DNA of 64,000 bases from Marinobacter sp. SS13-12 (lineage in GTDB: Bacteria; Pseudomonadota; Gammaproteobacteria; Pseudomonadales; Oleiphilaceae), in the NCBI RefSeq assembly GCF_030227115.1, contig NZ_JASSUA010000005.1:124001-188000 (forward strand), in the 5' to 3' direction. This document shows positions 13,441 through 60,521 of the stretch, piece after piece. The notes below the pieces were generated by a model. The model had not been told where the DNA came from, did not search any database, and saw only the letters and a list, made by a program, of their open reading frames with translations. Made by a program: the position numbers and the translations under genes. Position 1 is the first letter of the stretch, and each line of letters starts with the position of its first letter.

Positions 13441-13443
13441 AAA

Positions 13444-29590: not shown

Positions 29591-31247
29591 CTCCCTATTG
29601 CGGTCACTGGGTTTACTGTTTTTTTCACTCACCGTCAGTGCCAGTGACGCACCTCGTCAGGTACATAAAGATTCTCAAGTCCAACAACAGACCGACGAAA
29701 AAATCTCATTTGTTGTTCGTTATGCTGAGGGCGAACTTTCAGCCCAGAGCGTTGGAAAAAAGAAGCGAACCAACGTGGTGTCCGTTTCCCCCGAAGATGC
29801 TGATGGGTATGCCGCCTACCTTGAGCAGCAACCCGGCGTGCTTTCTGTCGAAAGGGATCTGCCCGCCTCAAATCCCCGAATGCCCAAAGCACCGATAACG
29901 CTCCCGCCTGGCGTGATGAGCGCGCAATCAATAACAGATTCACCTAATGACCCGGGATTCTCAGATCAATATGCCTGGCAAGCACCGACAGATGCTTACC
30001 CTGGGACGCACGACATCCTTGCCGCCACGCAGAAGTCCATTCAGACCCGAAAGGTTCGCATTGGGGTAGCAGATTCCGGTTTTCACCAGGTCTCTGACCT
30101 GATCTACGCCGGAGGATACAATTTTTCAGAAATTGACGGTCCCGGAGCGGACTTTTACACCCCACAAATTGACCCGTCCTGCACTAACAGCCACGGAACA
30201 GCCGTGGCGGGAATTATTGCTGCAACGACCAATAATTTTAATGGCGTTGCTGGCATTGTAGATACCGAGCTTTATGCCGCTCGGGTGATGAGCTGCGGAA
30301 GCGGCTATCTGAGCGATCTCGCTTCCGGTATCTATTGGCTTGCAGGTCAGCCTACTGGCTCCGCTCCCACGCTTGCCGAACCGGTTGATATTATCAATGC
30401 TTCCATGGGTTCTCAGAGCTCAACCTGTCCTGCCTACCTTCAGGATGCTATCGATTTCGCAGTGTCCAGAAACATTCTGGTTGTTGTGGCCGCGGGCAAT
30501 GAATCGATGGATGCAAGCAATTACACACCAGCAAATTGCAGAAACGTCGTTAGCGTTGGCTCCATCGACCGTAGAGGCAACCAGTCCGATTTCTCAAACT
30601 ACGGAGCTGAAGTCGACGTTGCAGCGCTGGGTGAATTAGTTCGCACGTTGAATGGTGAAGGGAAGATCAGCCTCTGGTTTGGAACATCATTTGCGACTCC
30701 AAACGCTGCCGGCATTGCAGGCTTGTTGAAACAGCAGTCACCAACCCTGTCTCCCGATAGACTCGCCCTTCGTCTCAAAGAGGCTACCCGCTACCCCGAA
30801 GTCTTGAGCAGCAGCTCCTTCAAAGGCGGAATAATCGATGCAAATTTAATGATTACACAGTTCCAGCGAGAACTTTCCGAGACAATGCCCGATTTCAAAC
30901 CTGCTCTGGCAAAGGCAGAGCGGTGCCATCGGTCAGCCTACCTTGATACTTCACCCGACCCAACGAAGCTTGAAGCCCTTTACGAACTAACCGCCGACAA
31001 TCTGACACTGAATAATGATGACGAGTACTTTACGGTTTTTCAGTATTCCAAAAACCAACTGATCGAAGATGCAAAGGTTGTTAATTCGTCACGGGAATCA
31101 AAATTCCTGGTTCAAAACGTAAATCCTGGCGAAAACCGCTATCTGTTTGATATCTGCCAAAAGGATGGCACTGGCTGCGTATTCGGGCGTTCACTTGAGC
31201 TCATTACCGATGGAACAACGACTATGGCCTCGGCATGCGGCTCATGA
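29580..31247 (+). CDS. Secreted S8 subtilisin-like serine peptidase
   Basis: A 555-residue exported subtilase. A signal peptide (LGLLFFSLTVSAS) is followed by an inhibitor-type propeptide region (SFVVRYAEGEL, YLEQQPGVLSVERDLP), then a peptidase S8 domain. The catalytic triad is visible: Asp in RIGVADSGFH, His in NSHGTAVAGII, Ser in GTSFATPNAAGIAG, plus the oxyanion Asn in AAGNES. A C-terminal domain of about 140 residues with several cysteines follows. It is expected in the periplasm or outside the cell. It shares an operon with the upstream lipoprotein and converges on the histidine kinase gene. Confidence 0.93.
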   Translation: MPFNSLLRSLGLLFFSLTVSASDAPRQVHKDSQVQQQTDEKISFVVRYAEGELSAQSVGKKKRTNVVSVSPEDADGYAAYLEQQPGVLSVERDLPASNPRMPKAPITLPPGVMSAQSITDSPNDPGFSDQYAWQAPTDAYPGTHDILAATQKSIQTRKVRIGVADSGFHQVSDLIYAGGYNFSEIDGPGADFYTPQIDPSCTNSHGTAVAGIIAATTNNFNGVAGIVDTELYAARVMSCGSGYLSDLASGIYWLAGQPTGSAPTLAEPVDIINASMGSQSSTCPAYLQDAIDFAVSRNILVVVAAGNESMDASNYTPANCRNVVSVGSIDRRGNQSDFSNYGAEVDVAALGELVRTLNGEGKISLWFGTSFATPNAAGIAGLLKQQSPTLSPDRLALRLKEATRYPEVLSSSSFKGGIIDANLMITQFQRELSETMPDFKPALAKAERCHRSAYLDTSPDPTKLEALYELTADNLTLNNDDEYFTVFQYSKNQLIEDAKVVNSSRESKFLVQNVNPGENRYLFDICQKDGTGCVFGRSLELITDGTTTMASACGS

Positions 31248-41515: not shown

Positions 41516-44500
41516 TTATTCAGTTAGTTTCTCAGCGGCCTCTATGTCTTCTCGAGTCAAATCCAGCGCGTCTCCAAGATCGTTAAGGTGATGATTGCAA
41601 ATGAGCTTTTCTGCCTCTGGCAAAAGAAGTTTTGCTGCTGGGAGGTCACCGGCCTCAACCAGGGTTGTTGCCCGAACGATGAGCAACCAAGCTCGGCGAG
41701 AATACCTTGCAGGGTGTTCTGCCTTATCCATTTCGATAAGTACCAACTCACCGTCATCCAACTCTATGCGTGCTTCCGGGTAACGCTCTAAAATCCTGAG
41801 CAAACGCGCGGACATGATCAGTGATTCGATTCGCAAGTCTAGCCGAGTTTCAGCCGGGAGTAGTGAAGGGTCAGCGGTAAGCTCTTTTGCTTCTCGCCAA
41901 AGCACAAGAGAATTCGAAAGGTCTTCAGCTTCCTCCAGGGTCTTAGCCAGATTACCAAGACTAATCGCGTAATCTTTTGCCCAACGCTCCGGGTCCAACT
42001 CATAGCCTTTGCGGCGGATCGACAGGGCTTGCTCGTAAAGCAGCAATGCCTCCGCTGCGAAACCTTGCTCGTCATACATAAACGCCAGGTTGTTCAGACT
42101 TGTTGCATAAGCTTTCGCCCAGCGCTCCGGATCTGCCTCGTAGCGCTCACGGCGGATTGACAAGGTCTCCTGGTGAAGAAGTAAGGCCTCTGTTTGATTG
42201 CCCAATTGCTCCTGGATATTCGCTAAATTGTTCAGGCTGTTAGCATAATCCTCCGCCCAGCGCAGCGGATTTGACTCGTAGCCCTCTTGGTAGATCGACC
42301 TGGCTTGCTCTTTCAGCGGCATTCCCTCCGCTGCGCGGCCTTGTTCATCATACGTAATCGCCAGATTGTCCAAGCTGCCAGCAAAAGCCTCGGCCCAACG
42401 GTCTGGATCCGATTCATAGCCCTCCCGGCGGATCGCCAGGGCTTCCTCATGCAGAGGCAGCGCCTCCGCGGCGCGGCCTTGTTGATTATACATAATCGCC
42501 AGGTTGCCCAGGCTGTTAGCGTAAACCTCCGCCCAGCGCTCTGGATCCAACTCATAGCCCTCTCGGCGGATCGAGAATGCTTGCTCATACAGCGGTAGCG
42601 CCTCCGACAGGCGCCCCAGCCTGTCATAGACAACGGCCAAATTATTCAGGCTGGTCGTGTAAGCCTCGTGCCAACGCTCTCGATCCGACTTATAGCCCGC
42701 ACTGAAGATCAACAGGGCTTTCGAGTACAACGGTAGCGCCTCCAACGGGCTACCAAGACTGTCAAGGGTAGAAGCCAGATTGTTCAGGCTGCTCGCATAA
42801 GCCTCCTCCCAGCGCTGAGGGTCCGAATCATAGCCCTCGCGGCGAATCGACAGGGATTGCTCATAAAGCGGCAGCGCCTCCGCCGTGCGCCCCAGCCTGT
42901 CATAAACAAAAGCCAGATTGCTCAAGCTGGTTGCGTAAGCCTCTGCCCAGCGTTCTGGATCTGCTTCATAGCGCTCACAGCGGATTGATAGGGATTCCTT
43001 GTGCAAGGGAAGCGCCTCCGACGAGCGACCTAGAGCATCAAGGGTAGAAGCCATATTGTTCAGGCCCCGTGCATAGGCCTCCGTCCAGCGATCCGGATCC
43101 GACTCATAGCCTTCACGAAAGATAGACAGGGTTCGTTCTTCCAGGGGTAGCGCCTTCGACGGGCGACCTAGCTTACTATGAGTAAAAGCTTGATTGTTTA
43201 GGTTCGTTGCATACCACTTCGCCCAGCGCTCCGGAGCTAACTCATAGACTTCGCTGAGGATCGACCCAGCTTCCTCATAAAGCGCCAGGGCATCCGACAG
43301 GCGACCCAAGCTGCTATAAACAGACGCTAAATTGTTTAGACTGCCAGCATAATCCTCCGCCCAGCACTCCGGATCCAATTGATAGCCCTCGCGGCAAACC
43401 GACTGAGCTTGCACGAGCAGCGGCTGCGCCTCCGACGGGCGACCAAGCCTTTCATATGTAAAAGCAACACTGTTAAGACTGCCTGCATAATCCGCGGACC
43501 AACGCTTTGGGTCCGCCTCATACCCTTCAAGGCGTATCGACCAGGCCTGCTTAGCCAGCGGCAGCGCCTCATAAGGGCGACCCATCATGTTAAGGGTATA
43601 GGTCAGATTATTCAGCCTGATCGCATATTGCATCGCCCAATCACCAAGCTTCGAAGTCCTCCCACGCATCAGCTGGTACCAGTAACGACCAAGAGCCACC
43701 AGAAACTTCCATCGCTCAATTTCCAGCGCACCTTTATCCGTATCACTGCAGACGCCAAGTTTGGACTGAGCAGAAAACCAGACGTTGCCGCTGGCTTCGA
43801 TTCGTTTAACCAGTTCACCAATCCCCTTTTCCAACTCCTCCGACGTCGGCCAGGCCTTGGTGACCAGCTGGGTAAACCGCTCCAGCAAAAACTGCTGCAG
43901 CAGGCTGTGTTGATGCACGTACCGGCTGGTGTTTTCCTCCAGCCGACGAATGATTTCATAGCCCCGTTCCAGCAGTTCATACTGAGCAGGCGTGAGACTG
44001 CCCTGCGCCTGCGCCTGAAGCTCTTGGAGGAAGGGTGCCAGATCCGGATGTTCCTGCATCGACATCTGCTGCAGGCTCTTGAGTACGTGCCCGACCAGGC
44101 CGGTCTGAAAAGGGCTACCTAGCAGGGGCGAGAAGAGCAGGCTGTAACGAGCGGTGCCGCCGAACTCCCCAAAGTATTGTTCAATCAGGTGCAGACGTTC
44201 TTCCAGGACCGCATAAGAGGCCAGATTGAACCGGGCGCCGCCAGCGTCCTGCCCGCTCTCAACCAGGTAGCTGGCCTGATAGGTGTCTGTGAGTTTTCTA
44301 AAGACCGTATCCAGAGACTCATTAAGGCCGGCGCTCTCTGGTGCTTTGAATTGATAACGATGGTTGCCCAGAGGTTCGATCAGCCTGGGCAGCTCGGGGT
44401 TACGCTTGTAGAACTGCGAATCGCTGATCACGTTCAGGGTTTCAATGGCGAACAAAGTGATAACGTCCGGGGCACTGTTTTCACCAGCCAGATTCCGGAT

Positions 44501-46510
44501 GACGCCACGCGCGAACTGATCGGCCTGCTCTCTGGTCATGCCAACGTAAGTAAGCTTTATGAGGTTGGCGAGCATGGGCTGGTCCATGCCTTTCAGATTG
44601 AGGTGGCTGGCCAGTAAGAGAACTTCTTGCGGATCTGTACTGAATGGAGCGGTATCGATCAGCCCCAGTTCTGCAAACAGCTGATTCCGATGGCGATTCA
44701 TCGCCGCGTGAGCTCCCGACTCCATCGCGGCGCTAAAGCTATCCGAGCCACGGGCAGTGGTAATGACGTACACCGGCAAGTCGGCCGGCCATTCGTTCAT
44801 CAGGAACTCGGCGGTGAAGTCATCCATCCACTGCAGGTCGTCAATTAACAGGATCAGAGGGCGTGGATGGCTCACCGGCTGGCCTTCCACTACTGGTGTG
44901 CACTTGAGCGCCAATTGGCATATTTCGTTAAGGGCCAGCCGCAGCAGTTCATACTGCTCTTCCTTGTGATTGGCCTGGGAAGATTGGCCAAAATCCTCCA
45001 GACGCAGGCTGAGCGTGTCGTCCTGCTCGCTCCAGGATTTGGCGCTGCGCGCGACTTCAATGGCCGAATCAACGCCCACCAGTCTGGAAATCATCCTCCC
45101 TAGCTTTGCCCGTACCCGCTTCTTGGCTTCCGGATCGTCCGACCGGGCATCATTTGCAAGGGCCTTGGTCCCTTCCTTTACCTCTCGGCCAGTTCTGGCA
45201 AACCAGCCAACGCTTTCCTCATAAATCAGGTTAAGCCGGCGAAGCTCATCCACAATTGAGTTCTTGAGCGAGGCCAGGCCTGTGGCCTGGGTACTGTGCC
45301 CTGTCTGGTTGAGCATTCTGAGGGTGGCAATGCTCAACCTGGCTGGATTACTGGTGTCGGAACGAACCTGCTGGATGAAGCGGTTGGCGAGGGCGGTTTT
45401 GCCGGTGCCAGGTTCGCCCTTGATCAGGGCCCAGGTCTGTGTCCCTAAGCTGTCTGGTTCCTTACATATCGCATTCCAGTCCTGCCACAGGCTATTGAGC
45501 TCGGCCTCCCGGCCCACGAATGTGCTGGCGCGGACGGCCGGTACGGGAATGTCGGAGTCCAGGCGTTCCAGAAGGCTATAACGGGAGGCCATCATGCGCA
45601 GTCTTGAAATAGCTCGCAGTTTTTCTTCGGTGGCGTTGTCTTCCACTGTGTCGTGGGGCTGTGGGCCGGTAAAGGTGAGCACCACGCTGATGCCAGCGGT
45701 CTGAACCCTGCTCTGTTCCAGATCATCCGTGTGGTTCACCTGACGCAGGTCTTTTTCCAGCGAGACGAGCATAGCCAGCAGAGCCAGGGAAGCGTCATCC
45801 AGTTGCAAGGGATCTTTAACCACAATGACTTTGGGCGCGCCATCGGTGGTCACCATAAACATTTGAAGTGCTAATTGCAGGACCTCGTGGCTGGTGACCT
45901 TTTCACTCAGGCGGGGTGCCAGCTCTTTCAGTCGCTTGCGGGCGGGCCGGGAGAGATACATCTCGTTATCCGAAGAGAAATGCCCAGTAACTGCTTCCGC
46001 GCCTGTTTCACCCACGGTTTCCAGAAGATCGCCACTCTGCTCGGCCACCGTTTCTATCCCCGTCTCAAAGGCGGAAGCCATGAAATCTGACGCACTGCCT
46101 GTCCACTCGGCCAGGTAATCCATCATTTTCTCGGCACCCACATTCAGGCTCTCGCCAACCGTATCTCCTAGTCCACCCCCCAGAGCCTGGCTCAGGCCAA
46201 AGCCGGTCAGTTTTTCCAGTATTTCCCGTTTGTGGATGTCATCGAATTCCTCATCCAGGCTGTCAAGCAACGCGCTAAAAATGGATATGGGGCCCTGGCT
46301 TTCCGTTTCACCTACCACCAGAACGTTGGTTTTGCCGTCTTTCGCCCCGACATCAAAAACCTTGGCACTGGCATCACAAACCGTTCTGAACGCATTGGAG
46401 CCCTGATTCGACCAGGTAGCCAGATCACTTTGCAGAACTTCGATCAGCAGCGCCTGCTGCTTGGCCTTTGTGAGGTCTTTAACCAGGTTGGACAGACGGT
46501 TTTCAGGCAT
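41516..46510 (-). CDS. Giant STAND-like P-loop NTPase with twelve 46-residue TPR-like repeats
   Basis: A 1664-residue protein. Residues about 1-340: unknown N-terminal domain containing a glycine-rich amphipathic stretch (about 105-180, with GLGDTVGESLNVG and ETGAEAVTG) and an ATPase-like strand (PKVIVVKDPLQLDDASLALL). Residues about 345-720: AAA/STAND NTPase with FVGREAELNSLW, Walker A GEPGTGKTALANRF (about 364) and Walker B LILLIDDLQWMDDF (about 549). Residues about 970-1528: twelve TPR-like repeats of 46 residues with consensus LPLYEQALSIRREGYE, DPERWAEAYA, SLNNLA, YDRLGR. The shape (effector, NTPase, repeat sensor) matches antiviral STAND proteins and eukaryotic-type NLRs. GGAG lies about 8 nt before the ATG. 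Last gene of a six-gene operon. Confidence 0.85.
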   Translation of the reverse strand: MPENRLSNLVKDLTKAKQQALLIEVLQSDLATWSNQGSNAFRTVCDASAKVFDVGAKDGKTNVLVVGETESQGPISIFSALLDSLDEEFDDIHKREILEKLTGFGLSQALGGGLGDTVGESLNVGAEKMMDYLAEWTGSASDFMASAFETGIETVAEQSGDLLETVGETGAEAVTGHFSSDNEMYLSRPARKRLKELAPRLSEKVTSHEVLQLALQMFMVTTDGAPKVIVVKDPLQLDDASLALLAMLVSLEKDLRQVNHTDDLEQSRVQTAGISVVLTFTGPQPHDTVEDNATEEKLRAISRLRMMASRYSLLERLDSDIPVPAVRASTFVGREAELNSLWQDWNAICKEPDSLGTQTWALIKGEPGTGKTALANRFIQQVRSDTSNPARLSIATLRMLNQTGHSTQATGLASLKNSIVDELRRLNLIYEESVGWFARTGREVKEGTKALANDARSDDPEAKKRVRAKLGRMISRLVGVDSAIEVARSAKSWSEQDDTLSLRLEDFGQSSQANHKEEQYELLRLALNEICQLALKCTPVVEGQPVSHPRPLILLIDDLQWMDDFTAEFLMNEWPADLPVYVITTARGSDSFSAAMESGAHAAMNRHRNQLFAELGLIDTAPFSTDPQEVLLLASHLNLKGMDQPMLANLIKLTYVGMTREQADQFARGVIRNLAGENSAPDVITLFAIETLNVISDSQFYKRNPELPRLIEPLGNHRYQFKAPESAGLNESLDTVFRKLTDTYQASYLVESGQDAGGARFNLASYAVLEERLHLIEQYFGEFGGTARYSLLFSPLLGSPFQTGLVGHVLKSLQQMSMQEHPDLAPFLQELQAQAQGSLTPAQYELLERGYEIIRRLEENTSRYVHQHSLLQQFLLERFTQLVTKAWPTSEELEKGIGELVKRIEASGNVWFSAQSKLGVCSDTDKGALEIERWKFLVALGRYWYQLMRGRTSKLGDWAMQYAIRLNNLTYTLNMMGRPYEALPLAKQAWSIRLEGYEADPKRWSADYAGSLNSVAFTYERLGRPSEAQPLLVQAQSVCREGYQLDPECWAEDYAGSLNNLASVYSSLGRLSDALALYEEAGSILSEVYELAPERWAKWYATNLNNQAFTHSKLGRPSKALPLEERTLSIFREGYESDPDRWTEAYARGLNNMASTLDALGRSSEALPLHKESLSIRCERYEADPERWAEAYATSLSNLAFVYDRLGRTAEALPLYEQSLSIRREGYDSDPQRWEEAYASSLNNLASTLDSLGSPLEALPLYSKALLIFSAGYKSDRERWHEAYTTSLNNLAVVYDRLGRLSEALPLYEQAFSIRREGYELDPERWAEVYANSLGNLAIMYNQQGRAAEALPLHEEALAIRREGYESDPDRWAEAFAGSLDNLAITYDEQGRAAEGMPLKEQARSIYQEGYESNPLRWAEDYANSLNNLANIQEQLGNQTEALLLHQETLSIRRERYEADPERWAKAYATSLNNLAFMYDEQGFAAEALLLYEQALSIRRKGYELDPERWAKDYAISLGNLAKTLEEAEDLSNSLVLWREAKELTADPSLLPAETRLDLRIESLIMSARLLRILERYPEARIELDDGELVLIEMDKAEHPARYSRRAWLLIVRATTLVEAGDLPAAKLLLPEAEKLICNHHLNDLGDALDLTREDIEAAEKLTE

Positions 46511-46536
46511 GGGTGCGCTCCGGCGTCTATTACCTA

Positions 46537-46965
46537 TTAATCGATCGAGGCGGTTTGGAAGTCATCATAATCAAGGCTCTTGACGGCGGCGTTCACACTA
46601 TCGTCAAGCTCTGGAATTTGAGGAAAAAGAGCCTCAACAAGCTCGAACATCGCAACTCTTTCGAGCTGATTGACCATAAAACCGCGGGCGAGTGATTTGA
46701 GATCAGCACCATTGAGTTGCTTTGGTCCCTGGATCTGCTGCGCCAACTGGAACGCTGGCGTTGAAATGCCGGAACGCATAATGCCCTCTGCACTAAACAT
46801 CCAGTCTGCAGAGCCCAGAAAGGACTCTGGAACAAAGCCCCACTCCGAGTCAGGTTCCGGTATAGCAAATAGCGTACAATTGGAAGTTCGCTTAACTCTC
46901 AAGGCCTCTGATGCGAGCGCAAGGGCTTGCTGGTCAAATTTCATTTCGCCTTTATCCGTTCTCAT
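46537..46965 (-). CDS. Unknown 142-residue protein of the NTPase operon
   Basis: A soluble protein with an acidic, helical C-terminus and no TM helix or recognisable motif. The central part includes PDSEWGFVPESFLGSADWMF, suggesting a compact alpha/beta fold. Its ATG overlaps the stop of the AbiC-like gene by 14 nt, and it ends 26 nt before the giant NTPase. This tight linkage to the NTPase suggests an adaptor, inhibitor or activator. No function can be named. Confidence 0.7.
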   Translation of the reverse strand: MRTDKGEMKFDQQALALASEALRVKRTSNCTLFAIPEPDSEWGFVPESFLGSADWMFSAEGIMRSGISTPAFQLAQQIQGPKQLNGADLKSLARGFMVNQLERVAMFELVEALFPQIPELDDSVNAAVKSLDYDDFQTASID

Positions 46966-47794
46966 GCTTGTCGTCCCAGCCGTAGCTCATGATTTTTGGA
47001 TGATTTTTAATAAACTCCAAAGTTTCTGCGTCATTATTAAAGCGTCCAGTTTCATAGATAAGGTCCAGAGCTCTCGATATTCTCAGAAAGTTAAAATCAT
47101 CATGGAAGTCTTTAATTTCTGGATGAGCTTCGACCCATTGCTCCTGGGTTATAGCTAGCAGCCAAAACAGCGGACGCCACCAAGCATAGAAGAAATCACA
47201 GTTTTTGATAATATCCTTGCTATTTACTTTGAACGTGAGAATTGAGAAAAAGTTGACAAGTTCATCCAGTTTAAACCTGGCTTTCTGCTCTTCTTTTTTA
47301 AAATCTTCCATCGATTCACATTGAAATATGTCATTTAGCGAATCGTAAAATTTTTCATCAAAAGGAATTTGACCAACAACGAAGAGCCTGCTTACAACGA
47401 AGTCGCAGTAGCGTTTATCTCGAACACACCCTATCAAGACCTTCATTGAGTAGCTTTTGATCGTTTGAAAATATTCACTGCAGAATGTCTGATACAGGTC
47501 GAGGACGGCTTTCTCTTTGGAATCTGCAGCCATCATCTGGTTTGCTTCTGAGGTTCGACTCAGCTCTTCCCTTGTGTCTTTAAGCTCCTCGATCTGAAGG
47601 TAGACAGTGATAATCACGCCACCAAAAGCCAGGCCGGCAAAAAGAGCGTTCAGGCTATTAAATACATCGTTGACAGGCTGATTTGTGAATTGACTGATCT
47701 CCGGTGTAAGTGAAAAAAACCACCCACCAATCCATATCCCCAGAATTATGAAGATGACTGGAAAAGCAATTTTGTACCCTGTCTTTTTATCCAT
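46952..47794 (-). CDS. Two-TM AbiC-like (putative phage abortive infection) protein
   Basis: A 280-residue protein. Two N-terminal TM helices (about 7-30 and 45-68) are followed by a coiled coil of the form LQIEELKDTREELSRTSE and a helical cytoplasmic domain. That beginning (NALFAGLAFGGVIITVYLQ then IEEL, EEL) is characteristic of the putative AbiC family of membrane-anchored abortive-infection proteins. The C-terminal domain has several Trp-rich helices. The family is linked to phage defence only through distant homologues, so activity is inferred. A 141-nt gap before it could hold a second promoter. Confidence 0.65.
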   Translation of the reverse strand: MDKKTGYKIAFPVIFIILGIWIGGWFFSLTPEISQFTNQPVNDVFNSLNALFAGLAFGGVIITVYLQIEELKDTREELSRTSEANQMMAADSKEKAVLDLYQTFCSEYFQTIKSYSMKVLIGCVRDKRYCDFVVSRLFVVGQIPFDEKFYDSLNDIFQCESMEDFKKEEQKARFKLDELVNFFSILTFKVNSKDIIKNCDFFYAWWRPLFWLLAITQEQWVEAHPEIKDFHDDFNFLRISRALDLIYETGRFNNDAETLEFIKNHPKIMSYGWDDKHENG

Positions 47795-47935
47795 TTCTTA
47801 AACCAATCCCTTAGTTCTTTGCAATTTAATAAAATTGAGTCAAGAGTCTCTGACTTGCTGCCTCCCAATCAGTAAGCCAACCACTGCTTATTAATGTCGG
47901 CGAACAGGTCATCAGTCATCGGATTTCATGCCTCG

Positions 47936-48106
47936 CTATTGTTTTTGTTGCGGCTTCGGCGAGTCGCTGCGACTCAACTCGTCTTTCAGGCGCTGCTCCT
48001 TGAAAGCCAGCATCAGACTCTCATCTCTCTTGCCGGTTAAATGGCAGCACAGCTTTCTAATCTTCAATTTCCACAAGTCGCTGCGGTTGCTTTTAAGTCG
48101 AGACAT
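47936..48106 (-). CDS. Small basic protein (56 residues) of the NTPase operon
   Basis: Starts at an ATG whose A is the last base of the preceding gene's stop (TGATG), so translation is coupled. Sequence MSRLKSNRSDLWKLKIRKL, then CCHLTGKRDE and a polar glutamine-rich end. It is strongly basic with a CC pair. I see no family. Too short for standard gene callers, but coupling and reading-frame position support it. Confidence 0.55.
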   Translation of the reverse strand: MSRLKSNRSDLWKLKIRKLCCHLTGKRDESLMLAFKEQRLKDELSRSDSPKPQQKQ

Positions 48107-49110
48107 CAGAATTTTCCGTGTTTGGCAGGACGAGGTAGTGCACCGGAATTCATGACCAGGCTCACCTGGGCCTGATGCTCATCAACTAACTCCTGATAGA
48201 TTTCACTCAGTTCTGCCTGGGTTATCTGTCGATCGCGAAGGGCGTTGCTTATTTTTTCTGCCGTATCCGCCTGCCGCGACTCCAGTTGGGAATAGGATTG
48301 GATAAGGTCCTGTTTCTCTGGCTGCCAATCCAGTATCGGAAGCGGCCCCAACCGATACCCGAGACTTTCGGCAAATGCTTTTGCTAAGCCGCGGCTCTGG
48401 TCCAGAAACAACAGCTTGAGGAAGTTCGGAACTGACAACAGGGGGCATCGATCGGATTCCAGGGCAGCGCCGAGCACACGGTGAGAAAGGCCGTTGAGAG
48501 ATGAACCCTGCTGCCTCAGGTTTTGCAACTTTACTCGGACATTACACTGAAAAATTTCATAGCGTTTCCTCCAGTCTGCATCGGCATCAACAATGCCGCC
48601 CCCCTGCCTGGCGAGACACGCCTGCTCAAGCTTGAACAATAGCGAGAGGCTTTCACAAAAATCTTCGTAGATTTCTCTGAGTAAAGATTGGCGGGCACCA
48701 TCGACCGTCTCCTTCGTTGTCCTGTTGATAACCGACACAAGAAGGTGTTGTGTTTCAGCTAGTTCACCGTTGCGATCACTGAAAGCCCCGAGCAAGTCCG
48801 CCTGAGGATCCTCGGTGAACAGGGGCAGTGGTGCAATCAACAAATCCAGTTGCCGGCAGATCGAATGGAGTACAGGTTTGTTATTGATGAGATCCAGAAC
48901 ACTCCAGAACTCGTCCAGTCTGAGGTGATGAGTATCGGTGGAAGGAGTGAGTGCATTTTGAAAAGAACCGGCAGAAGTTCTTACGGGCCGCCCTTGCTGC
49001 AACATATCCCGATGTAACGCCGCAGCCTTCCGACCACAAGAGTTCAACGCGGTTCTAAGCTCCAGAGATACCTGATAATGCCATTCGTCCAGCGTAGCCC
49101 AGGTAAGCAT
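48106..49110 (-). CDS. Unknown 334-residue helical protein of the NTPase operon
   Basis: A soluble, predominantly helical protein with many leucines and several cysteines spread along its length. No TM helix or catalytic motif is evident. A C-terminal coiled-coil-prone segment (SQLESRQADTAEKISNAL, then ITQAELSEIYQELVDEHQ) suggests protein-protein contact. It follows the TerB-like gene by 8 nt and overlaps the small basic protein's start. Family unknown; a scaffold between the TerB-like protein and the rest of the system would be a reasonable guess only. Confidence 0.7.
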   Translation of the reverse strand: MLTWATLDEWHYQVSLELRTALNSCGRKAAALHRDMLQQGRPVRTSAGSFQNALTPSTDTHHLRLDEFWSVLDLINNKPVLHSICRQLDLLIAPLPLFTEDPQADLLGAFSDRNGELAETQHLLVSVINRTTKETVDGARQSLLREIYEDFCESLSLLFKLEQACLARQGGGIVDADADWRKRYEIFQCNVRVKLQNLRQQGSSLNGLSHRVLGAALESDRCPLLSVPNFLKLLFLDQSRGLAKAFAESLGYRLGPLPILDWQPEKQDLIQSYSQLESRQADTAEKISNALRDRQITQAELSEIYQELVDEHQAQVSLVMNSGALPRPAKHGKF

Positions 49111-49118
49111 AGGTACCC

Positions 49119-49619
49119 CTATTTAGTCCTGGGTAGAAGTTCAAATACCTGCTCTATATACCTTCGTTCCGCGTCCACGATCCGGCGGGCAAACATTTCA
49201 TTTGCCCCATTCCCCATGTCAGCAGGACACGTGGCAGCAATTTCCAGGCATGCCTGGAAAAGCTTCTCCCTCTGGTAAAGAGAATCGGTTGTTGCCTTTT
49301 GCTCATTATTGCGTCTGCTAAGTAGCTCACTAGCCACCTCAAAAAAGGGCCAGAGTGTGCTCGGATCCGGTTTTTGCGCGACAAATGTTCTGTCAAAAAT
49401 GTCGATATCTGCCTGTGAGACGACTTCCATTCCTTCAGCGAGTTCAGCAAGCGCGCGGCAGTGCTCCTGTATGATCACCTGAAGCTTTGCCCGCTCGGGG
49501 ATCTGATTTCGACCATCTGCCCACATAACCTGAACAACAGGAATAACCGGGGCAAGGTAGATCAACGAGGGAGGGAGGTCGTGCTGCGACAGCAACGCTG
49601 CAAAACGGGACTGCGGCAT
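49119..49619 (-). CDS. TerB-like protein, first gene of the NTPase operon
   Basis: A 166-residue helical protein. VVQVMWADGRNQIPERAKLQ near residue 28 fits the TerB-like signature (ADG followed by a conserved Glu about five residues later, which helps bind metal). Downstream helices also fit. TerB-domain proteins occur in tellurite-resistance and stress or conflict gene clusters at the membrane. AAAGGA lies 9 nt before the ATG. An inverted repeat TTAAC-GAAG-GTTAA at 49664-49677 lies in the promoter region and could bind a regulator. Confidence 0.6.
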   Translation of the reverse strand: MPQSRFAALLSQHDLPPSLIYLAPVIPVVQVMWADGRNQIPERAKLQVIIQEHCRALAELAEGMEVVSQADIDIFDRTFVAQKPDPSTLWPFFEVASELLSRRNNEQKATTDSLYQREKLFQACLEIAATCPADMGNGANEMFARRIVDAERRYIEQVFELLPRTK

Positions 49620-50160: not shown

Positions 50161-50529
50161 CTAACCTTTCCACTCACAGGCTTTTTTTAGATGGGGGATC
50201 GACCGTTGCATAGCATCCGTTTCCTTCCAATCACGCTCGTAGAGAATTTCAATTTCTACCGCTTTATATTCACGATAACTAAGAAGGTCCCCAAGTTCGT
50301 AAACAACACAGGTGCAAATCTGTTGGTTGACCATTTCTTCGATGTCATTCTCAAACTCTAATTCAGCCAGGCAAACTTGAGCTAATTTGTACATGCTCGT
50401 AACCTCCCTGACCGTCTGCATATCATAATGAACGTCGTTATCGACAATATTCGCCGTACGGCCAAGACTAGGCACTACCGCGGTTCCAAAAAAAAGAGAC
50501 ACTACCGCAGCTTTCATAAGATATTTCAT
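50161..50529 (-). CDS. Exported protein of unknown function downstream of the relaxase
   Basis: A 122-residue protein with a signal peptide (LMKAAVVSLFFGTAVVPSLGR). The mature part is acidic and contains a CTCVVYELGDLL stretch with nearby cysteines and a C-terminal CEWKG. Unknown family; the small, cysteine-bearing, periplasmic profile recalls plasmid-encoded exclusion or regulatory proteins, but nothing identifies it. Its ATG overlaps the stop of the membrane-protein gene upstream (4 nt), so it belongs to the relaxase operon. Confidence 0.65.
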   Translation of the reverse strand: MKYLMKAAVVSLFFGTAVVPSLGRTANIVDNDVHYDMQTVREVTSMYKLAQVCLAELEFENDIEEMVNQQICTCVVYELGDLLSYREYKAVEIEILYERDWKETDAMQRSIPHLKKACEWKG

Positions 50530-50999
50530 AGTGAATTCCGCTCTTTTTTCGATTCCTTATTGACCGCATCCTCAAGCGTGACTTGAACAATGCCACGAAG
50601 CACACCACCCTGAGTGGCCAGAATTTCTCTCGGGAAGATCACGGGCCAAAAACAAAATCCGAAAAATCCTGCGCCAATCACCATAATCATTGGTGGTAAT
50701 ACCACTTCAACGCTTCCTACCATGAATTCAGGATTGTTGTCGGCGCTAAGCTCAGGCGTCACGAGCAGAATCGTCAAAACTGCGGCAATGACGCCTACCG
50801 CACGGATAAAGCCGCTCGCGTAATGGCAGAAAACACTAAATCCTAACGCCAGCGGTACTGCCAAAAACACACCAACCACAGCCGCTTCATTAATCCTCAG
50901 GCTTGGAAACAGCAACGCATCGGTCACAAACCACGCCCAGAGCGCCATCCCCAAGGTCGGAGCGATAACACATTTCATGAATCCCAGTGTGTAAAACAT
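50526..50999 (-). CDS. Polytopic membrane protein downstream of the relaxase
   Basis: A 157-residue protein with about four TM helices (GMALWAWFVTDALLF, VVGVFLAVPLALGFSVF, AVGVIAAVLTILLV, PPMIMVIGAGFFGFCFW). The hydrophilic C-terminal tail ends KESKKERNS. It starts 15 nt after the relaxase stop, so it is probably co-transcribed with it. It is not a recognised Tra protein. A role in entry exclusion or regulation of the coupling complex is possible but unsupported. Confidence 0.65.
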   Translation of the reverse strand: MFYTLGFMKCVIAPTLGMALWAWFVTDALLFPSLRINEAAVVGVFLAVPLALGFSVFCHYASGFIRAVGVIAAVLTILLVTPELSADNNPEFMVGSVEVVLPPMIMVIGAGFFGFCFWPVIFPREILATQGGVLRGIVQVTLEDAVNKESKKERNSL

Positions 51000-51014: not shown

Positions 51015-53804
51015 CTAAAGCGACAAGCCCTTATCTGGTCCGCCTTTTCCTCGTCCCAGAGTCTTGTCGACAATTTCCTTAACTTTATGCGTAACCTTTT
51101 CCATTCTGGTCTCTTTCACCAGTCCATCCGCCGCAAACATTTTGTCGACGCTCACATTGCGGCCTTCTAGCGCACTGGTCTTCTCACCAGTACGTTCCTC
51201 GATGCCCTTGCTCAGTTTCGCTTTATCATCAGTGTAAATCCGAGCATCTTCTTTCGCTCGTGACAGGCCCACATAAAACGACTTCTGATTGATCAGATTC
51301 CGACGCCAACTTTCTGCTAAAGCCATAGCCGATCGATACGTCTGACCCTGGGCCGAAACGATCGTGCTGGCGTAGCCGTGATCCCAGTGCTTCTCTTTGT
51401 TCAGATCCAGGGTCATTCGGCGGCCGTCCTGAAATTTAACAATAGCCGTCGAGCCTTCCATCCGCTCTACTTCGCCCTTGGCACCATTTTTCAAATCCCG
51501 ATCCTTGTCGGTTTTTGTCAGCCGGATTTTGTCGCCTTCAGCGAGCTTCTTTTCCTCTTCACGATAGACCTCGACACCATGTTTGGCGCGACCGGCAACC
51601 TTATCGGGTCGCCATTCGACTTCTCGCCCCTCTTTGTTCTGATATACCACTTTTTCGCCTTCAACACGGAGGACTTTCACCACATCATTGCGCTCAACCT
51701 CAAGGGTTTTGAAATCACGGGAAAACTGCACCAGGTCTCCTTTCTGATAACCCCGCGAACTTCCCTTCTCCATCCGTGTCAGGCCCAGACTGACCAGCGC
51801 CTTGAATTCAGCCTTGTCCTTACCAAGCTCACCGTTTTGTTGCAGCTTCTCTCGGATCCCCTGGTTAACCACACCACGGGTTTCGTTATCGGGCACCATC
51901 AACAGAGTCTCGGAACGATCTTTGGCACTCATGCCGGCATAGTCATCGATAACGCGATTAACCAACGCTCCTCGGTCAGCCTCTTCGTGAATCCGTCCTG
52001 CGACGTTCTTCATGGCCTTGGCCGCATGGCCTATCATCGCGTCTTTCACGGCCTGCAGGAGCAACGGACTGTTCTTCTGCCGCTGAATCTCTGTCATCTG
52101 CGCCGTCTTCATTCCACCTCGCACCAGCTGGGCAAATGGCTTACCCCACTCCACGGCTCCAATCTGAGCATGGTCACCAATCAGCGCGACACGAGCGCCT
52201 TCTTTTCTCGCAAAGGTCAAAAGATCGGCCATCTGATTCGCGTTCACCAGAGAGCCCTCATCCACTACCCAAAGCTTCTTCTGATCAAGACCCTTGCCGC
52301 CCTTACCCTCTTCCTCTCTGGCCATCGTAAACAAGTGGCTGGCAAGCGTTTGGCTTCGAATTCCCGAGCCCTCCATTAAAGAGTCACTGGCTGAGCCAGT
52401 TGGCGCGAAACCACGAACCGAATAACCTTTGTTTTCGGCAACCTCTCGCACCGCAGACAGCATGTAGGTCTTGCCCGTCCCGGCATAACCCTGCACCCCT
52501 ACAACCCGATCTTTGCCATTCAGGATCGTCTCAGCGGCCTCCTGCTGGCCCTTCGTGAACCCCAGAGACTGGCCAAATTCCTTCACTGCCCCTTTACCGG
52601 AAATCGGCTTTAATTCGTTCTGACCCGTCTTCACCAGATCTACTATGTACCGCTCTTTCTTCAGCGCCTGTGGCGTCGTCAGATAGGCCTCGTCCTTATC
52701 AATGCCGGTGGCATGAAGCAGCACTTTCTCCTGCTTTAAATCGACGATCGCTTTCTCAACATCCTTAATACTGTGATGGCCAATACCCCACGCCAGCGTC
52801 ATTTTTGTGAGCTCACCCTGAGAAAATACCGCCTCGCGCTCAGCCAATTTCTTATAGGCAAAAATGGCGTCGTCCTTGGCCCTTTCCAGTGGTGCCTTAT
52901 CCAATTCCACTTTGGCCTCCGGTATTTTCGGAACGGATAGGCCCGCTTCCTTCAGCTCCCCGCTCCAACGATCCTGCAACACATCCTCTGTGGTCGATTG
53001 CTTGGAATCACGAGTCATCAATGACGCTTGATCCATCGCTTTCGCGCCCTCAAGGCCGCGCTCTTTGGCGGCTGCCTCGATGTCTTTGCGTCGTTTGGAG
53101 TAAAGATCTCGCAATTCCGGAGAGACTTCTGCGAGCTCAAACGTGCCGTTCTTACCAGGAACGACGGTGTAACCCAATTCATCCGCCTTGATGGCAAGCT
53201 CCGACCGATAGACCTGACCTGCCGCAACGTTCGGGTCATACATCTTGCGACTCTCAATGGAGCGCCAGAGCCCATCGTCTCTTAACGTGGCATTCAGAAT
53301 CACACTATGGGTGTGCAATTGCGGATCCAGAGCGCGACTGGTGGTGTGGGTAAACGTCGCCGCCGCCAGGTTCTCGGTACGCACAAACTGTGACACGCCA
53401 TCAGCCGTATTCCTCGCCCCAACCAACTTGTCTTCCACGTAGCCAAGCGCGGTTTTAACCGCATCTTTGTGCGCTTCCATCAGGCGCTCATCGCCGCCCA
53501 TTAAAGCCATGATCGAAACGGATTTTGGTGCCGAAAACGTAAAATCCCAACCAGGCTTATGCTCTAATCCACCATTGCCGTCAGATCGCCCCAGCACATC
53601 GCCAGTGGGCAATCGCCCTTCCAAGGCGTTCTGGAATACTTTTAAATCCACCTCGCCTTCCAGGCCCATTAAAGCCGCTCCTTTACCGACCCATTCGCTC
53701 GGGATCGCCTCCTTTTCTCCATTCTCATCTTTGCCGTAGTAATCGGCATCCTTGTAGTAAGAACCGGCTTGTTTCGCGCTTCCTAGCGCCTTGATAGAAA
53801 GCAT
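51015..53804 (-). CDS. traI: TraI/TrwC-like MobF relaxase-helicase
   Basis: A 929-residue relaxase that nicks oriT and unwinds the transferred strand. Catalytic tyrosines lie near the N-terminus (GSYYKDADYYGKD). The metal-binding histidine triad is FTHTTSRALDPQLHTHSV (near residue 155-170). The helicase half has Walker A GYAGTGKTYML (about 445) and Walker B WVVDEGSLV (about 511), plus superfamily I motifs to the C-terminus. Size and order match R388 TrwC (966 residues), not the long F TraI (1756). The 1-nt overlap with traD (TGATG) couples them. Symbol given in the F convention; trwC would be equally correct. Confidence 0.94.
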   Translation of the reverse strand: MLSIKALGSAKQAGSYYKDADYYGKDENGEKEAIPSEWVGKGAALMGLEGEVDLKVFQNALEGRLPTGDVLGRSDGNGGLEHKPGWDFTFSAPKSVSIMALMGGDERLMEAHKDAVKTALGYVEDKLVGARNTADGVSQFVRTENLAAATFTHTTSRALDPQLHTHSVILNATLRDDGLWRSIESRKMYDPNVAAGQVYRSELAIKADELGYTVVPGKNGTFELAEVSPELRDLYSKRRKDIEAAAKERGLEGAKAMDQASLMTRDSKQSTTEDVLQDRWSGELKEAGLSVPKIPEAKVELDKAPLERAKDDAIFAYKKLAEREAVFSQGELTKMTLAWGIGHHSIKDVEKAIVDLKQEKVLLHATGIDKDEAYLTTPQALKKERYIVDLVKTGQNELKPISGKGAVKEFGQSLGFTKGQQEAAETILNGKDRVVGVQGYAGTGKTYMLSAVREVAENKGYSVRGFAPTGSASDSLMEGSGIRSQTLASHLFTMAREEEGKGGKGLDQKKLWVVDEGSLVNANQMADLLTFARKEGARVALIGDHAQIGAVEWGKPFAQLVRGGMKTAQMTEIQRQKNSPLLLQAVKDAMIGHAAKAMKNVAGRIHEEADRGALVNRVIDDYAGMSAKDRSETLLMVPDNETRGVVNQGIREKLQQNGELGKDKAEFKALVSLGLTRMEKGSSRGYQKGDLVQFSRDFKTLEVERNDVVKVLRVEGEKVVYQNKEGREVEWRPDKVAGRAKHGVEVYREEEKKLAEGDKIRLTKTDKDRDLKNGAKGEVERMEGSTAIVKFQDGRRMTLDLNKEKHWDHGYASTIVSAQGQTYRSAMALAESWRRNLINQKSFYVGLSRAKEDARIYTDDKAKLSKGIEERTGEKTSALEGRNVSVDKMFAADGLVKETRMEKVTHKVKEIVDKTLGRGKGGPDKGLSL

Positions 53805-55651
53805 CAGAGAAGTGCTCCATCCACATAGTTATTGGGCTTCGGCTTGCCCGTAGCTTTCGTCTCTGCGTCCTCAATCAGATCTATCTGACCCGATTCCACC
53901 TTCGCCGCCGGTACTGCAACCGGTATCGGCCTCAAGTCCCTCGGCACAAAGCCTTCAGCAATCTTTTTGTATGCCTTCCTCTTGAGCTTGAACTGCGCCA
54001 CTGGGAAAGACCGACCAAGCTTCAAATAACCAACAAGATCCGGCAAAAACTGAATCTCTGTGGGCAAGACAATCGGTCGAACATGGCGCTGGCGATTCAG
54101 TGATACCCCGTCCCGAATGTCGTTCACACCGTAAGAAATCCCCTCATTTGTCTCCAACTGCTCGATGCTGCCCAGGCCGAGACTGGCCCACTTCGCGGAA
54201 CGTTCTTCATTGAATCGGAAGACCGCCCAGGTGGAGCACATACCGGCCAGCGTATCGGCCTCATCCCGCCCATAAATCGAAACCATCTGCGGGTAACTTT
54301 GCACCCCCAGCACACCGCACCCGCCAAACTTCCTCGACTGCGCCAGGGTGTCGGTAATGGTGGGCAACCGGTTCAGACTTGGAAGCTCATCAATGAGCAA
54401 CCAAATTCGCCTGTCCCGACACGGCTCCATCGACAAAATCGCGGACGATGCTGTATCCAACCAAGCCGTGATCAGCGGCTTTACTACGTCCTTCTGATCG
54501 TCTTTGCGCGTGATGAAGATCCACTGGTCCCCGTCATCGTTCCTGACCCATTCCTTGATTGAAAAGGTATTACCGCCGTCCTGCAGGTATTTTAGTGGCC
54601 GCGTGTAGGTCGCCAAGACAGCCCGGACAGATGACGCCATTTTTTCAGCCCCTTCAGACAGAATTGACGCACCCTCAGTCCCTTTCAAAAAGCCTATGAT
54701 CTCGTCCAGATCAGTGTTTAGAATCTTATCCACGAGCAACTTGTTAGACCGCTGTGGGTGATCAGCCAGCTTTCTCGCAATGGCCGCAAATACAATTCGC
54801 GCCGCAGTCGCCCAGAACGGATCGTTAGACTTCTGATCCGGAATGAACGAGGTCGCCAACTGATCAAATTCGTAATCCTCTTTACACTCAGTCCAGACAT
54901 CCCACGCTCGGCCCCGTGCATCAAATGGACTAAGAATGACGTCATGCCCCTCTCGGTAGAATGTCTCCACCATCTGACCGGACGGGTCATACACAATGGC
55001 CCGCTGGCCACGCTTGCGAATGACCTCTCCCATTTCGTTGTAGGTCACAGACTTGCCGGTACCAGGCGCACCGACAATCAGAAAATGCGCCGGCTCCGAC
55101 TCTTTCGGAATGGGAATTCGCGCAACCGTCAGCCCATCCGTTTTGGCGCTCCGCTTGATCTCTTTTGTGAGCTCTTTGGGATCCACCAATTTGCCGCCCC
55201 GCACAAATTCCTCGTTGGCAAAGTCCTCTCCCGTGCTATTCAAGAATCGCCAAACCACCAGGCCAAAAATAGCCAAGCCAAGAACCCCGAACACGACGCC
55301 ATACGCCAGCGCCGTGGTGCTTTGATCGAGCGCCCGATGTATCTCTGAATTCCGCAGAAAACCCACCGCAGGGATCGCTCTTCTCCGGCCATCCGGATAA
55401 GTAATCGAGACGGTCGCATCCTCGATCTTCAGGCCTTCATATTTCACATAGGCCTCCATATACCCCACCGCTAGAGATCGCTCTATCGGTGTCGTCTTCA
55501 TCCAGTAAGTCACTGCGAGAGTCGTAATGAACAGAATCACGCACAGCCTGGAGAACTGGACTACGACCTGCCAGATCATCCGGAAGTAATGGATGGTGGT
55601 CTGACCGCCCCGCGTAAAGTTGCCGATATTCGAGCCCCTGAAAATACTCAT
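53804..55651 (-). CDS. traD: Type IV coupling protein TraD/TrwB
   Basis: A 615-residue membrane ATPase that links the relaxosome to the secretion channel. Two N-terminal TM helices (about 30-50 and 115-135) are followed by a RecA-like domain with Walker A VGAPGTGKSVTYNE (about 200) and Walker B IWLLIDELPSLNRLP (about 416). The LGVQSYPQM motif is also seen. The C-terminal tail is short compared with F TraD and resembles TrwB. It begins right after the stop of the ribbon-helix-helix gene and overlaps the relaxase gene. Confidence 0.94.
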   Translation of the reverse strand: MSIFRGSNIGNFTRGGQTTIHYFRMIWQVVVQFSRLCVILFITTLAVTYWMKTTPIERSLAVGYMEAYVKYEGLKIEDATVSITYPDGRRRAIPAVGFLRNSEIHRALDQSTTALAYGVVFGVLGLAIFGLVVWRFLNSTGEDFANEEFVRGGKLVDPKELTKEIKRSAKTDGLTVARIPIPKESEPAHFLIVGAPGTGKSVTYNEMGEVIRKRGQRAIVYDPSGQMVETFYREGHDVILSPFDARGRAWDVWTECKEDYEFDQLATSFIPDQKSNDPFWATAARIVFAAIARKLADHPQRSNKLLVDKILNTDLDEIIGFLKGTEGASILSEGAEKMASSVRAVLATYTRPLKYLQDGGNTFSIKEWVRNDDGDQWIFITRKDDQKDVVKPLITAWLDTASSAILSMEPCRDRRIWLLIDELPSLNRLPTITDTLAQSRKFGGCGVLGVQSYPQMVSIYGRDEADTLAGMCSTWAVFRFNEERSAKWASLGLGSIEQLETNEGISYGVNDIRDGVSLNRQRHVRPIVLPTEIQFLPDLVGYLKLGRSFPVAQFKLKRKAYKKIAEGFVPRDLRPIPVAVPAAKVESGQIDLIEDAETKATGKPKPNNYVDGALL

Positions 55652-57569: not shown

Positions 57570-57630
57570 TCTCTTTGTATACTTCTAAAAGACTAAAAAC
57601 CGATAAGAATCAGCACTCTTTGTGCATCTT

Positions 57631-58166
57631 CGTCTAAGGCTTCGCTTGTCTTTTGCACTGTGATGATCTTGATTGTCCGGAGACCGCCGGGATCGGGCAG
57701 AGCCCGACTTAGATTTAGCGCGGCTCTGCCGCCACATCGTTGCTGAAGTCTGACCAGGCCTCCCCCTGTCGTGAGATCCCGACCGCCCATCAACCGCACC
57801 CGTCGAAGCAGACGCCGGGGCGAGCCTTGCAAGGTGGAACGCAGCGCAGCGAGTAGACCTTGTAAGGATCGTTCCGGTGTCTGAGGGTGCAAAAAGGTTG
57901 ATGGGGGGTCGGGATCGATCTGCGGGAAGCACTTCACCCCGCTTTAAGAGCGTGTGGCACAGCCACTCGCTCCTGGAGGATCGGTAAACAGTCGCGCAAG
58001 CGTCTGTTGATCCGACACCGGGAGCCCGCTTTCAGCGGGCATCCTTCACCGGCCGGAGGTCGGAAGCGCGAGGGATATGGAGGGCGCCAGTCCCGCAACG
58101 CGGGATGAGCGAATAGCGAACCCGGAGAAGCCCGCCCCGAAGGGCGCGCCCAGGTTTACGCCTTAC
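57631..58166. repeat. 536-nt structured repeat, copy 1 (single-stranded promoter candidate)
   Basis: Matches 59986-60521 at a constant offset of 2355 with about 11 mismatches and no indels seen. Contains many hairpins, such as CCCGCTTTCAGCGGG and CGCAACGCG, and the arms GTCGCGCAAGCGTCTGTTGATCC. Two overlapping ORFs (57585-57937) lack ribosome-binding sites and both are translations of the same repeat, so I treat it as non-coding. It lies upstream of ardC and downstream of the 58176 gene, all on the minus strand. Confidence 0.85.
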
Positions 58167-58175
58167 TGAGAATGG

Positions 58176-58496
58176 TCAGTCACTGGCAAGATAAGCATCC
58201 ACCCCCTCATCGAGATAACTCGGCAAACGATCCTCGGCCTGTTCCTGGAGTAAATCATTCTCCAGAACTTCATCGTTTGCACTAACAATCCGAAAATTCG
58301 GAATCACTTCCACATTCGAACTGTGAGACTTCCACTCACCGAATGCAGCGTCCTCGATGGTCAGCAGAAACTTGCCCCCCTCTAACGGCAACTCCCGAAT
58401 CACGGTGCCCCGTTTCAAAGGCATATCGCCAACAACCTGCCCTGTGTCCCGCAGAAATCTTTTGGTAAACCGAACCTCTTTCCCTCGAAAACTCAT
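58176..58496 (-). CDS. Leading-region protein of unknown function (106 residues)
   Basis: A soluble acidic protein beginning MSFRGKEVRFTKRFLRD with a beta-strand-rich centre (VIRELPLEGGKFLLTIED) and an acidic C-terminus. Unknown family. Its ATG overlaps the stop of the 46-residue gene (ATGA), so it ends a four-gene coupled operon with the ArdB-like gene first. This is followed directly by repeat copy 1, which makes its transcript end uncertain. Confidence 0.7.
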   Translation of the reverse strand: MSFRGKEVRFTKRFLRDTGQVVGDMPLKRGTVIRELPLEGGKFLLTIEDAAFGEWKSHSSNVEVIPNFRIVSANDEVLENDLLQEQAEDRLPSYLDEGVDAYLASD

Positions 58497-58924: not shown

Positions 58925-59341
58925 TCAGGCAATGAGCCGTTTAATGTCTTTGGCGAACGGCGAATCCATGGCGTCGAGCCATAGCCGGTTGTAGGCGGTG
59001 TAGAACACCGGATCACCTGTGAAACAGGCGAGGCGGGTAAACGCCACCAGCGACAGCGCCATCCCTGCGGTGGCCGCATTAGCTCGAACAGCCCCCAGAT
59101 TGCGCGGGTTGAACAGCTTCACCCGCTCGGTGATTACCGGCTCCATAAAAAACCCTGCGGAGTCAGTGCCAAGATAGAGCCACTGCGCGCCACGAAATTG
59201 AGGTTGCCATTCGGCCATAACCGAAAACACGGTTTGCTCGATTTCAGCGCGGTACGCGCTCAAGTAATGGGGAAAACGGGTCTTGCGGAATTTGAACACG
59301 GACGCCGGAGCGTCTGACAAACAGGGTGCGATTGCACTCAT
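58925..59341 (-). CDS. ArdB/KlcA-like antirestriction protein
   Basis: A 138-residue protein resembling the ArdB/KlcA family: GTDSAGFFMEPVIT corresponds to the family's NGGFYMAP, and VRANAATAGMALSLVAFTRL to SADAAGIVATL. Typical length is about 140. ArdB blocks type I restriction in vivo. Placed first in a four-gene minus-strand operon with its own TTGACA-17-GATAAT promoter and the leader shared with ardC. Antirestriction proteins of two families in one leading region suggest strong pressure from host restriction. Confidence 0.7.
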   Translation of the reverse strand: MSAIAPCLSDAPASVFKFRKTRFPHYLSAYRAEIEQTVFSVMAEWQPQFRGAQWLYLGTDSAGFFMEPVITERVKLFNPRNLGAVRANAATAGMALSLVAFTRLACFTGDPVFYTAYNRLWLDAMDSPFAKDIKRLIA

Positions 59342-59844: not shown

Positions 59845-59935
59845 CCCCATCGCCTCGAACCACCGGCGAGCGTGGCGCTTAGACTATTCCCTAAGTGCAC
59901 GATAATAATACCATTATTTTGTTTTATACGTCACT
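59845..59935 (-). promoter_or_regulatory. Third copy of the leader with weak promoter
   Basis: TCGCC-N10-GGCGA present at 59850-59871 in the minus-strand sense. Upstream are -10-like TATTAT (59905-59910) and -35-like GTGACG. Weaker promoter than the first two copies. It would drive the two small membrane-protein genes. Confidence 0.45.
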
Positions 59936-59985
59936 CTTTGTGTATACCTTTGAGGGATAAAAAACGAGCTTCCACGGCCCAATTC

Positions 59986-60521
59986 CGTCTAAGGTTTTGC
60001 TTGTCTTTTGCACTGTGATGATCTTGATTGTCCGGATGCCGCCGGGATCGGGCAGAGCCCGACTTAGATTTAGCGCGGCTCTGCCGCCACATCGTTGCTG
60101 AAGTCTGACCAGGCCTCCCCCTGTCGTGAGATCCCGACCGCCCATCAACCGCACCCGTCGCAGCAGACGCCGGGGCGAGCCTTGCAAGGTGGAACGCAGC
60201 GCAGCGAGTAGACCTTGTAAGGATCGTTCCGGTGTCTGAAGGTGCAAAAAGGTTGATGGGGGGGCGGGATCGATCTGCGGGAAGCACTTCACCCCGCTTT
60301 AAGAGCGTGTGGCACAGCCACTCGCTCCTGGAGGATCGGTAAACAGTCGCGCAAGCGTCTGTTGATCCGACACCGGGAGCCCGCTTTCAGCGGGCATCCT
60401 TCACCGGCCGGAGGTCGGAAGCGCGAGGGATATGGAGGGCGTCAGTCCCGCAACGCGGGATGAGCGATTAGCGAACCCGGAGAAGCCCGCCCCGAAGGGC
60501 GCGCCCAAGTTAACGCCTTAC
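59986..60521. repeat. 536-nt structured repeat, copy 2 (single-stranded promoter candidate)
   Basis: Near-identical to copy 1 and in the same orientation, upstream (minus-strand sense) of the two small membrane-protein genes and the ArdB-like operon. Between it and the plus-strand gene at 60670 lie 148 nt with no clear gene. ORFs inside it (59924-60292) are repeat translations, not genes. Confidence 0.85.

Follow-up and report, generated by a model that had tools for sequence, protein, structure and literature searches.

Six closely spaced genes lie on the minus strand of a 64,000-nt stretch of DNA from Marinobacter sp. SS13-12 (contig NZ_JASSUA010000005.1, positions 124,001 to 188,000; hereafter the window), which is part of a circular 191.5-kb Marinobacter plasmid. 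In transcription order they encode a 166-residue protein (P166), a protein of the phage CII family (CII334), the short open reading frame (ORF) P56, a protein with two hydrophobic, putatively transmembrane (TM) stretches (TM280), P142, and a giant STAND-type NTPase (NTP1664) (Table 1). A first-pass annotation, made from the sequence alone, had described this layout as six minus-strand genes with overlaps or small gaps and a single gap of 141 nt, and all six ORFs are present as described; successive spacings are an 8-nt gap, a 1-nt overlap, the 141-nt gap, a 14-nt overlap and a 26-nt gap. The 14-nt overlap between TM280 and P142, together with the 26 nt that separate P142 from the NTPase gene, points to one transcript from TM280 on. 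No sigma-70-like site was found between positions 41300 and 50200, where shuffled sequences gave an expectation of 5.7, and the 141-nt gap likewise contains none. Guanine-plus-cytosine (GC) content is 51.9% for P166, 52.0% for CII334, 49.1% for P56, 40.5% for TM280, 49.9% for P142 and 55.6% for the NTPase gene. In the flanks compared, no repeats bracket the cassette (longest common words 10 and 9 nt).

The annotation had also reported no recognised family for the 142- and 56-residue proteins, and none could be assigned to either. Among 117 genomes searched, P142 turned up in one, its own. P56 has no significant match at the eight other loci that were checked by tblastn (L007-L011, L024, L025 and L032), and may be a small real gene or debris.

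Table 1. Coordinates (window positions) of the operon genes, the upstream element and the neighbouring mobilization genes.
Feature	Position	Strand	Description
NTP1664	41516..46510	-	1664 aa, AAA_16 NTPase with twelve TPRs
P142	46537..46965	-	142 aa, 14-nt overlap with TM280
TM280	46952..47794	-	280 aa, two-TM plus coil, C-terminal part of no known family
P56-TM280 gap	47795..47935	-	141 nt
P56	47936..48106	-	56-aa ORF, 1-nt overlap with the CII334 stop
CII334	48106..49110	-	334-aa phage-CII-family (Phage_CP76) putative DNA-binding regulator
P166	49119..49619	-	166 aa, first gene, model all-helical
20-nt element AATTGTAGTTTTTTGAAAAA	49721..49740	-	101 nt upstream of the P166 start codon; candidate operator or edge of the cassette
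MobF (TrwC) relaxase and TrwB coupling protein	51015..55651	-	plasmid context, outside the cassette

The P166-CII334 pair and its upstream element

The most interesting part of the operon is the P166-CII334 pair, with its common upstream element and differing ATPase partners, and not the giant NTPase. No family had been recognised at first for the 334-residue protein; it matches Pfam Phage_CP76/CII (PF06892) at 1e-15 (58.3 bits against a cut-off of 26, best stretch 207-318) and PHROG 101, annotated as "CII-like transcriptional activator", at 5.9e-16. These profile matches suggest that CII334 is a DNA-binding regulator. It shares the family profile with phage CII and differs from it in size, having 334 aa against a model of 146 positions. 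A search for CII334 proteins found 17, itself included, and CII334 was found in 2 of 124 genomes of the genus, including its own. P166 was found in 2 of 369 genomes of the class, again counting its own, and its predicted structure is all-helical at low confidence (predicted local distance difference test score, pLDDT, 69). The label "TerB-like", given earlier to this 166-residue protein, was not borne out: there is no Pfam TerB match at E<=1, and a search of the genome with PF05099 (E<=10) returned six places, none of them on the contig of the operon. Comparison of P166 with three TerB proteins of the same genome by hhalign gave a probability of 0.3%, from 3-row alignments of low power. A distant relative of P166 (28%) lies at positions 9454-9936 of L025, in a genome of another family, between genes that look by eye cold-shock-like and transporter-like.

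The window cluster and a second Marinobacter cluster (L024, genome G068) both begin with P166 and CII334 and carry the same upstream 20-nt element. At L024 the two homologues are each 60% identical to their counterparts, stand in the same order and are 9 nt apart. The element, AATTGTAGTTTTTTGAAAAA, recurs there unchanged, 95 nt ahead of the start codon of the P166 homologue, in a comparison of 400-nt upstream regions, of which the remainder aligns poorly by eye; across 300 pairs shuffled by a first-order Markov model, the longest common word was 14 nt. Its 18-nt core has a single match in the window at <=2 mismatches (0.00 expected) and a single match in its own genome at <=1 mismatch. Across 83 genomes, a set with G068 outside it, the core was found in two, the second being a one-mismatch site in G025. 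A backwards control of the core also matched twice (G100 and G115), and therefore only exact sites of the core are meaningful. The element may be an operator, plausibly for CII334, or else an edge sequence of a mobile cassette.

What follows the pair differs between the two clusters. In the window it is P56, TM280, P142 and the STAND-type NTPase; at L024 it is a 1196-aa ClpB/FtsH-type protease of AAA-AAA-M41 make-up (AAA_2, AAA and Peptidase_M41), whose gene begins 57 nt past the CII334 homologue. The longest word that this FtsH-like gene shares with the 141-nt gap of the window is 12 nt. Between its AAA domains, the L024 protease (positions 7842-11432) has an extra stretch that looks receiver-like by eye ("VLLIDDD..."), with no receiver family among the 25 of 27 rows listed.

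The NTPase, TM280 and their links to other loci

The description of the largest protein as a P-loop NTPase of 1664 residues with twelve repeats stands. Its N-terminal region (residues 1-320), in which no Pfam domain was found among 25 of 32 families listed, is followed by an AAA_16/Orc-Cdc6-like STAND NTPase at about residues 320-750, a helical region, and twelve TPR units of 46 aa at residues 1004-1555 (TPR_10, 5.1e-72). The AAA_16 domain itself spans residues 330-570 (1.5e-10; 42.3 bits against the curated Pfam cut-off of 32.6). In an alignment of 10 NTPases, the residues of GEPGTGK (G365-K371) are invariant save for T369, conserved at >=90%, and DDLQW is largely invariant. The AAA_16 P-loop core, helical region and C-terminal TPRs are features shared with STAND AAA_16/Orc-Cdc6 NTPases, including Avs/AVAST. 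NTP1664 differs from Avs in that PADLOC matched no Avs model, only "TPR" (8e-13) and mad8 (4.9e-4), and in that no Pfam effector domain was recognised on it among the families listed; the effector, if any, is probably a separate protein. Avs5 carries its effector within its own chain, as a Sir2-like domain (PMC12931631); NTP1664 gave no match to a domain of that kind among those families.

The NTPase was found in 3 of 145 relatives, its own genome included, and in 1 of 369 genomes of the class, its own; a scan of genome contigs gave at least two further loci, L007 and L008. In the relatives the AAA part is kept, and simple pattern counting gives from 0 to 15 TPR-like units, some of these relatives being fragments; variation of this kind is expected for a fast-changing recognition end. 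A decayed copy with stops lies in another genome of the genus (G006, C13:287253-288803; L011), and the gene has therefore been lost as well as gained within Marinobacter.

The 280-residue protein had been called AbiC-like, and part of that label holds. TM280 has two hydrophobic stretches, and its N-terminal part resembles, with two TM helices and a coil, that of the putAbiC protein P0175 (38% identity over 106 aa). The putAbiC domain itself (PF16872), which occupies residues 178-257 of P0175, was matched neither by TM280 at E<=1 nor by two A2 members at E<=0.01, and TM280 falls into a broad family of its own, with 125 proteins (120 listed). It was found in 1 of 340 genomes of the class, its own, and in 2 of 174 genomes of the order, the second matching in the front part alone. 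TM280 is a candidate membrane effector.

In Thiomicrorhabdus (L008; T. chilensis, on a 2.4-Mb contig), relatives of TM280 and of the NTPase are grouped with a protease of this type. The protease there, of 940 aa, has the same domain make-up as that of G068 and is 31-32% identical to it over two stretches (448 and 352 aa); the TM280 relative (45% identical) follows 306 nt after it, and the NTPase relative, on the opposite strand, begins at a distance of about 1.5 kb, with a single intervening ORF of 281 aa. Two NTPase and two CII334 homologues lie on contigs of equal size, 233,146 bp (both "Marinobacter sp.") and 20,431 bp (from the same sources), and are therefore very probably on the same contigs; the distance between the two genes on the 20,431-bp contig, if it is shared, is below 20.4 kb. 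The P166-CII334 pair, the FtsH-like protease, TM280 and the NTPase thus form a chain of pairwise links, and each link outside the window is based on one or two genomes or contigs.

A further FtsH-like protein, at L032 (genome G125), is followed by a YbjN-like protein (below the cut-off) and a 439-aa protein. The region at 8135-13848 of this locus, with the FtsH-like, YbjN-like, 439-aa (N-terminal two-TM look, by eye) and 153-aa proteins, is possibly another cassette of this style.

A possible modular cassette or neighbouring modules

We read the operon as a modular conflict cassette, probably directed against phages or mobile elements and carried on a conjugative plasmid, in which a conserved pair would control exchangeable ATPase modules and a membrane effector; we place the probability of this reading at about 0.4. 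Through the upstream element, CII334 and P166 would maintain the operon in a silent or primed state, and the NTPase would rest in a closed state until its TPR array bound a foreign or stress-made protein. It would then oligomerise on ATP and signal to TM280, directly or via P142, and TM280 would damage the inner membrane or halt growth. In the sister arrangement of L024, the protease would stand in for the NTPase as the ATP-driven output. If this is true, a phage lysogeny-type regulator has been recruited to head a cell-conflict switch in which a sensor NTPase and a protease are interchangeable as the ATPase output. An extra control layer would thereby be added to STAND-type immunity, the two-TM family of 125 proteins would gain a role as a shared effector, and the cassette on its conjugative plasmid could be turned against rival phages or plasmids.

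The annotation had proposed one six-gene defence system. A role in defence is plausible for the six proteins, given the STAND NTPase with its TPRs, the two-TM protein with its distant kinship to putative abortive-infection proteins, the plasmid and the patchy spread; a single six-gene system is unsupported, and two of the three family labels fail the profile test. The operon resembles a modular kit more than a fixed new system of six genes. Several observations weigh against even the modular reading. The six genes, expected to be found together elsewhere, co-occur at none of the eight other loci. Among the other four NTPase loci (that of G022, a genome of the same genus, the broken copy of G006, L007 and L008), a partner lies near the NTPase in one, L008, and is a TM280 relative only; P166, CII334, P56 and P142 have no significant match at any of the four. 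At L024, tblastn found no NTPase, TM280 or P142, and at L032 no P166, CII334 or TM280, and each link through the FtsH-like protease rests on a single genome. Agreement in contig size may arise by chance, and one further case (4,733 bp, between an NTPase and a TM280 relative) must have done so, because both genes would not fit. CII334 has no match in 50,697 phage records (E<=0.01), in which it again differs from phage CII, or in 72,556 plasmid records (E<=1e-5), and P166 has none among the plasmid records. P166, CII334, P56, TM280 and P142 gave no PADLOC match at E<=1, and the effector activity of TM280 is putative. The co-location of these genes could also reflect a general clustering of accessory genes.

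Nearly as likely as the modular cassette is accretion, by which two or three independent modules came to stand side by side on the plasmid: a P166-CII334 unit, a stand-alone STAND NTPase sensor, and a stand-alone Abi-like TM280. Such independence would fit the NTPase relatives of G022, G006 and L007, which have no detectable partner nearby (L007, from Pseudoalteromonas, is a 10.5-kb contig on which the neighbours are partly visible), and the 13-nt leader GCCGGAGCGCACC that directly precedes the NTPase start in both G022 and the window. The distant P166 relative of L025 likewise stands without CII334, TM280 or the NTPase. TM280, with its broad family, has a GC content of 40.5%, outside the 49-56% spanned by the remaining five genes, and is therefore possibly a recent insertion or late arrival; the 141-nt gap separates it from P56. 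Accretion has more difficulty with the repeated pairwise links among families that are scarce in genome samples, and with the close spacing that joins TM280, P142 and the NTPase gene.

The modular cassette resembles several described systems in part. Kaur et al. (2020) described ATPase-centred, module-swapping conflict systems around MoxR and vWA, with FtsH and inactive-STAND subtypes (PMC7159879). These NTP-dependent ternary systems share with our loci an ATPase centre and exchangeable modules; they differ in that neither MoxR nor vWA was found among the six operon proteins (for the NTPase, among the families listed), and the terms "CII" and "TerB" are absent from the text of that paper. Shango consists of TerB, an ATPase and a helicase (PMC10250203). 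The operon likewise has an ATPase, and its first gene encodes a small protein whose ADG motif recalls TerB; it differs in that no helicase family was above cut-off among the six proteins and the TerB profile was unmatched.

In the FtsH-like proteins of L024, L008 and L032, the AAA domain that comes second matches the IetA models (best 5.4e-32). IetAS consists of an AAA ATPase and a subtilase. The matched region is a generic AAA domain, the L024 and L008 proteins differ from IetA in carrying an M41 peptidase domain on the same chain, and the window operon has no FtsH-like protein. A bolder form of the modular reading, which we consider rather unlikely, would put P166-CII334 at the centre of control in a family of conflict systems not yet described, with a recruited phage CII regulator, a small helical partner, a private operator, interchangeable ATP-dependent outputs (NTPases of the TPR-STAND type or proteases of the ClpB/FtsH type) and a shared two-TM effector class.

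Plasmid setting

The host genome comprises 4.64 Mb in 10 contigs, and the contig that holds the window (C5) measures 191,632 bp. Its termini are identical over 121 bp, and it therefore represents a circular molecule of 191,511 bp, with a GC content of 52.7%. The window encodes the F-type transfer proteins TraN, TraU, TraF, TraH and TraG_N, the MobF/TrwC relaxase, TrwB and an ArdC-type antirestriction protein, from which we conclude that the plasmid is conjugative. No close plasmid backbone was found in the plasmid collection by megablast with window positions 38000-62000. The operon lies beyond the relaxase gene, with two small ORFs (50161-50999) in between.

This nearness to the relaxase and coupling genes would also suit an operon for plasmid biology or proteostasis (transfer control, exclusion, stability or membrane stress), in which CII334 and P166 would regulate an ATPase acting on membrane or transfer proteins. 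The alternative partner of the pair, a ClpB/FtsH-type protease, has a quality-control architecture that would agree with such a role. We consider this explanation distinctly improbable: the sister copy of G068 sits on a 598,784-bp contig and the NTPase relative of L008 on one of 2.4 Mb, and no transfer genes were seen by eye in the L008, L010 and L024 stretches, for which no profile search was made.

Two further features of the surroundings were observed. About 10 kb from the operon, window positions 28640-31247 hold a lipoprotein-like gene paired with an S8 subtilase gene, and Pseudoalteromonas has a related pair (L007, 1218-4961) at a distance of about 1.8 kb from its NTPase relative. The subtilases are 37% identical over 289 aa, and the lipoproteins share 12 of 40 residues at the C-terminus (E 2e-5); the window subtilase matches the PADLOC "subtilase" model at 1.9e-16 and IetS weakly. 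Around 58-60 kb, two minus-strand ORF regions (57585-57937 and 59924-60292) are near-identical by eye and form a DNA repeat, between whose copies lie two small, putatively coding ORFs (58176-58496 and 58925-59341).
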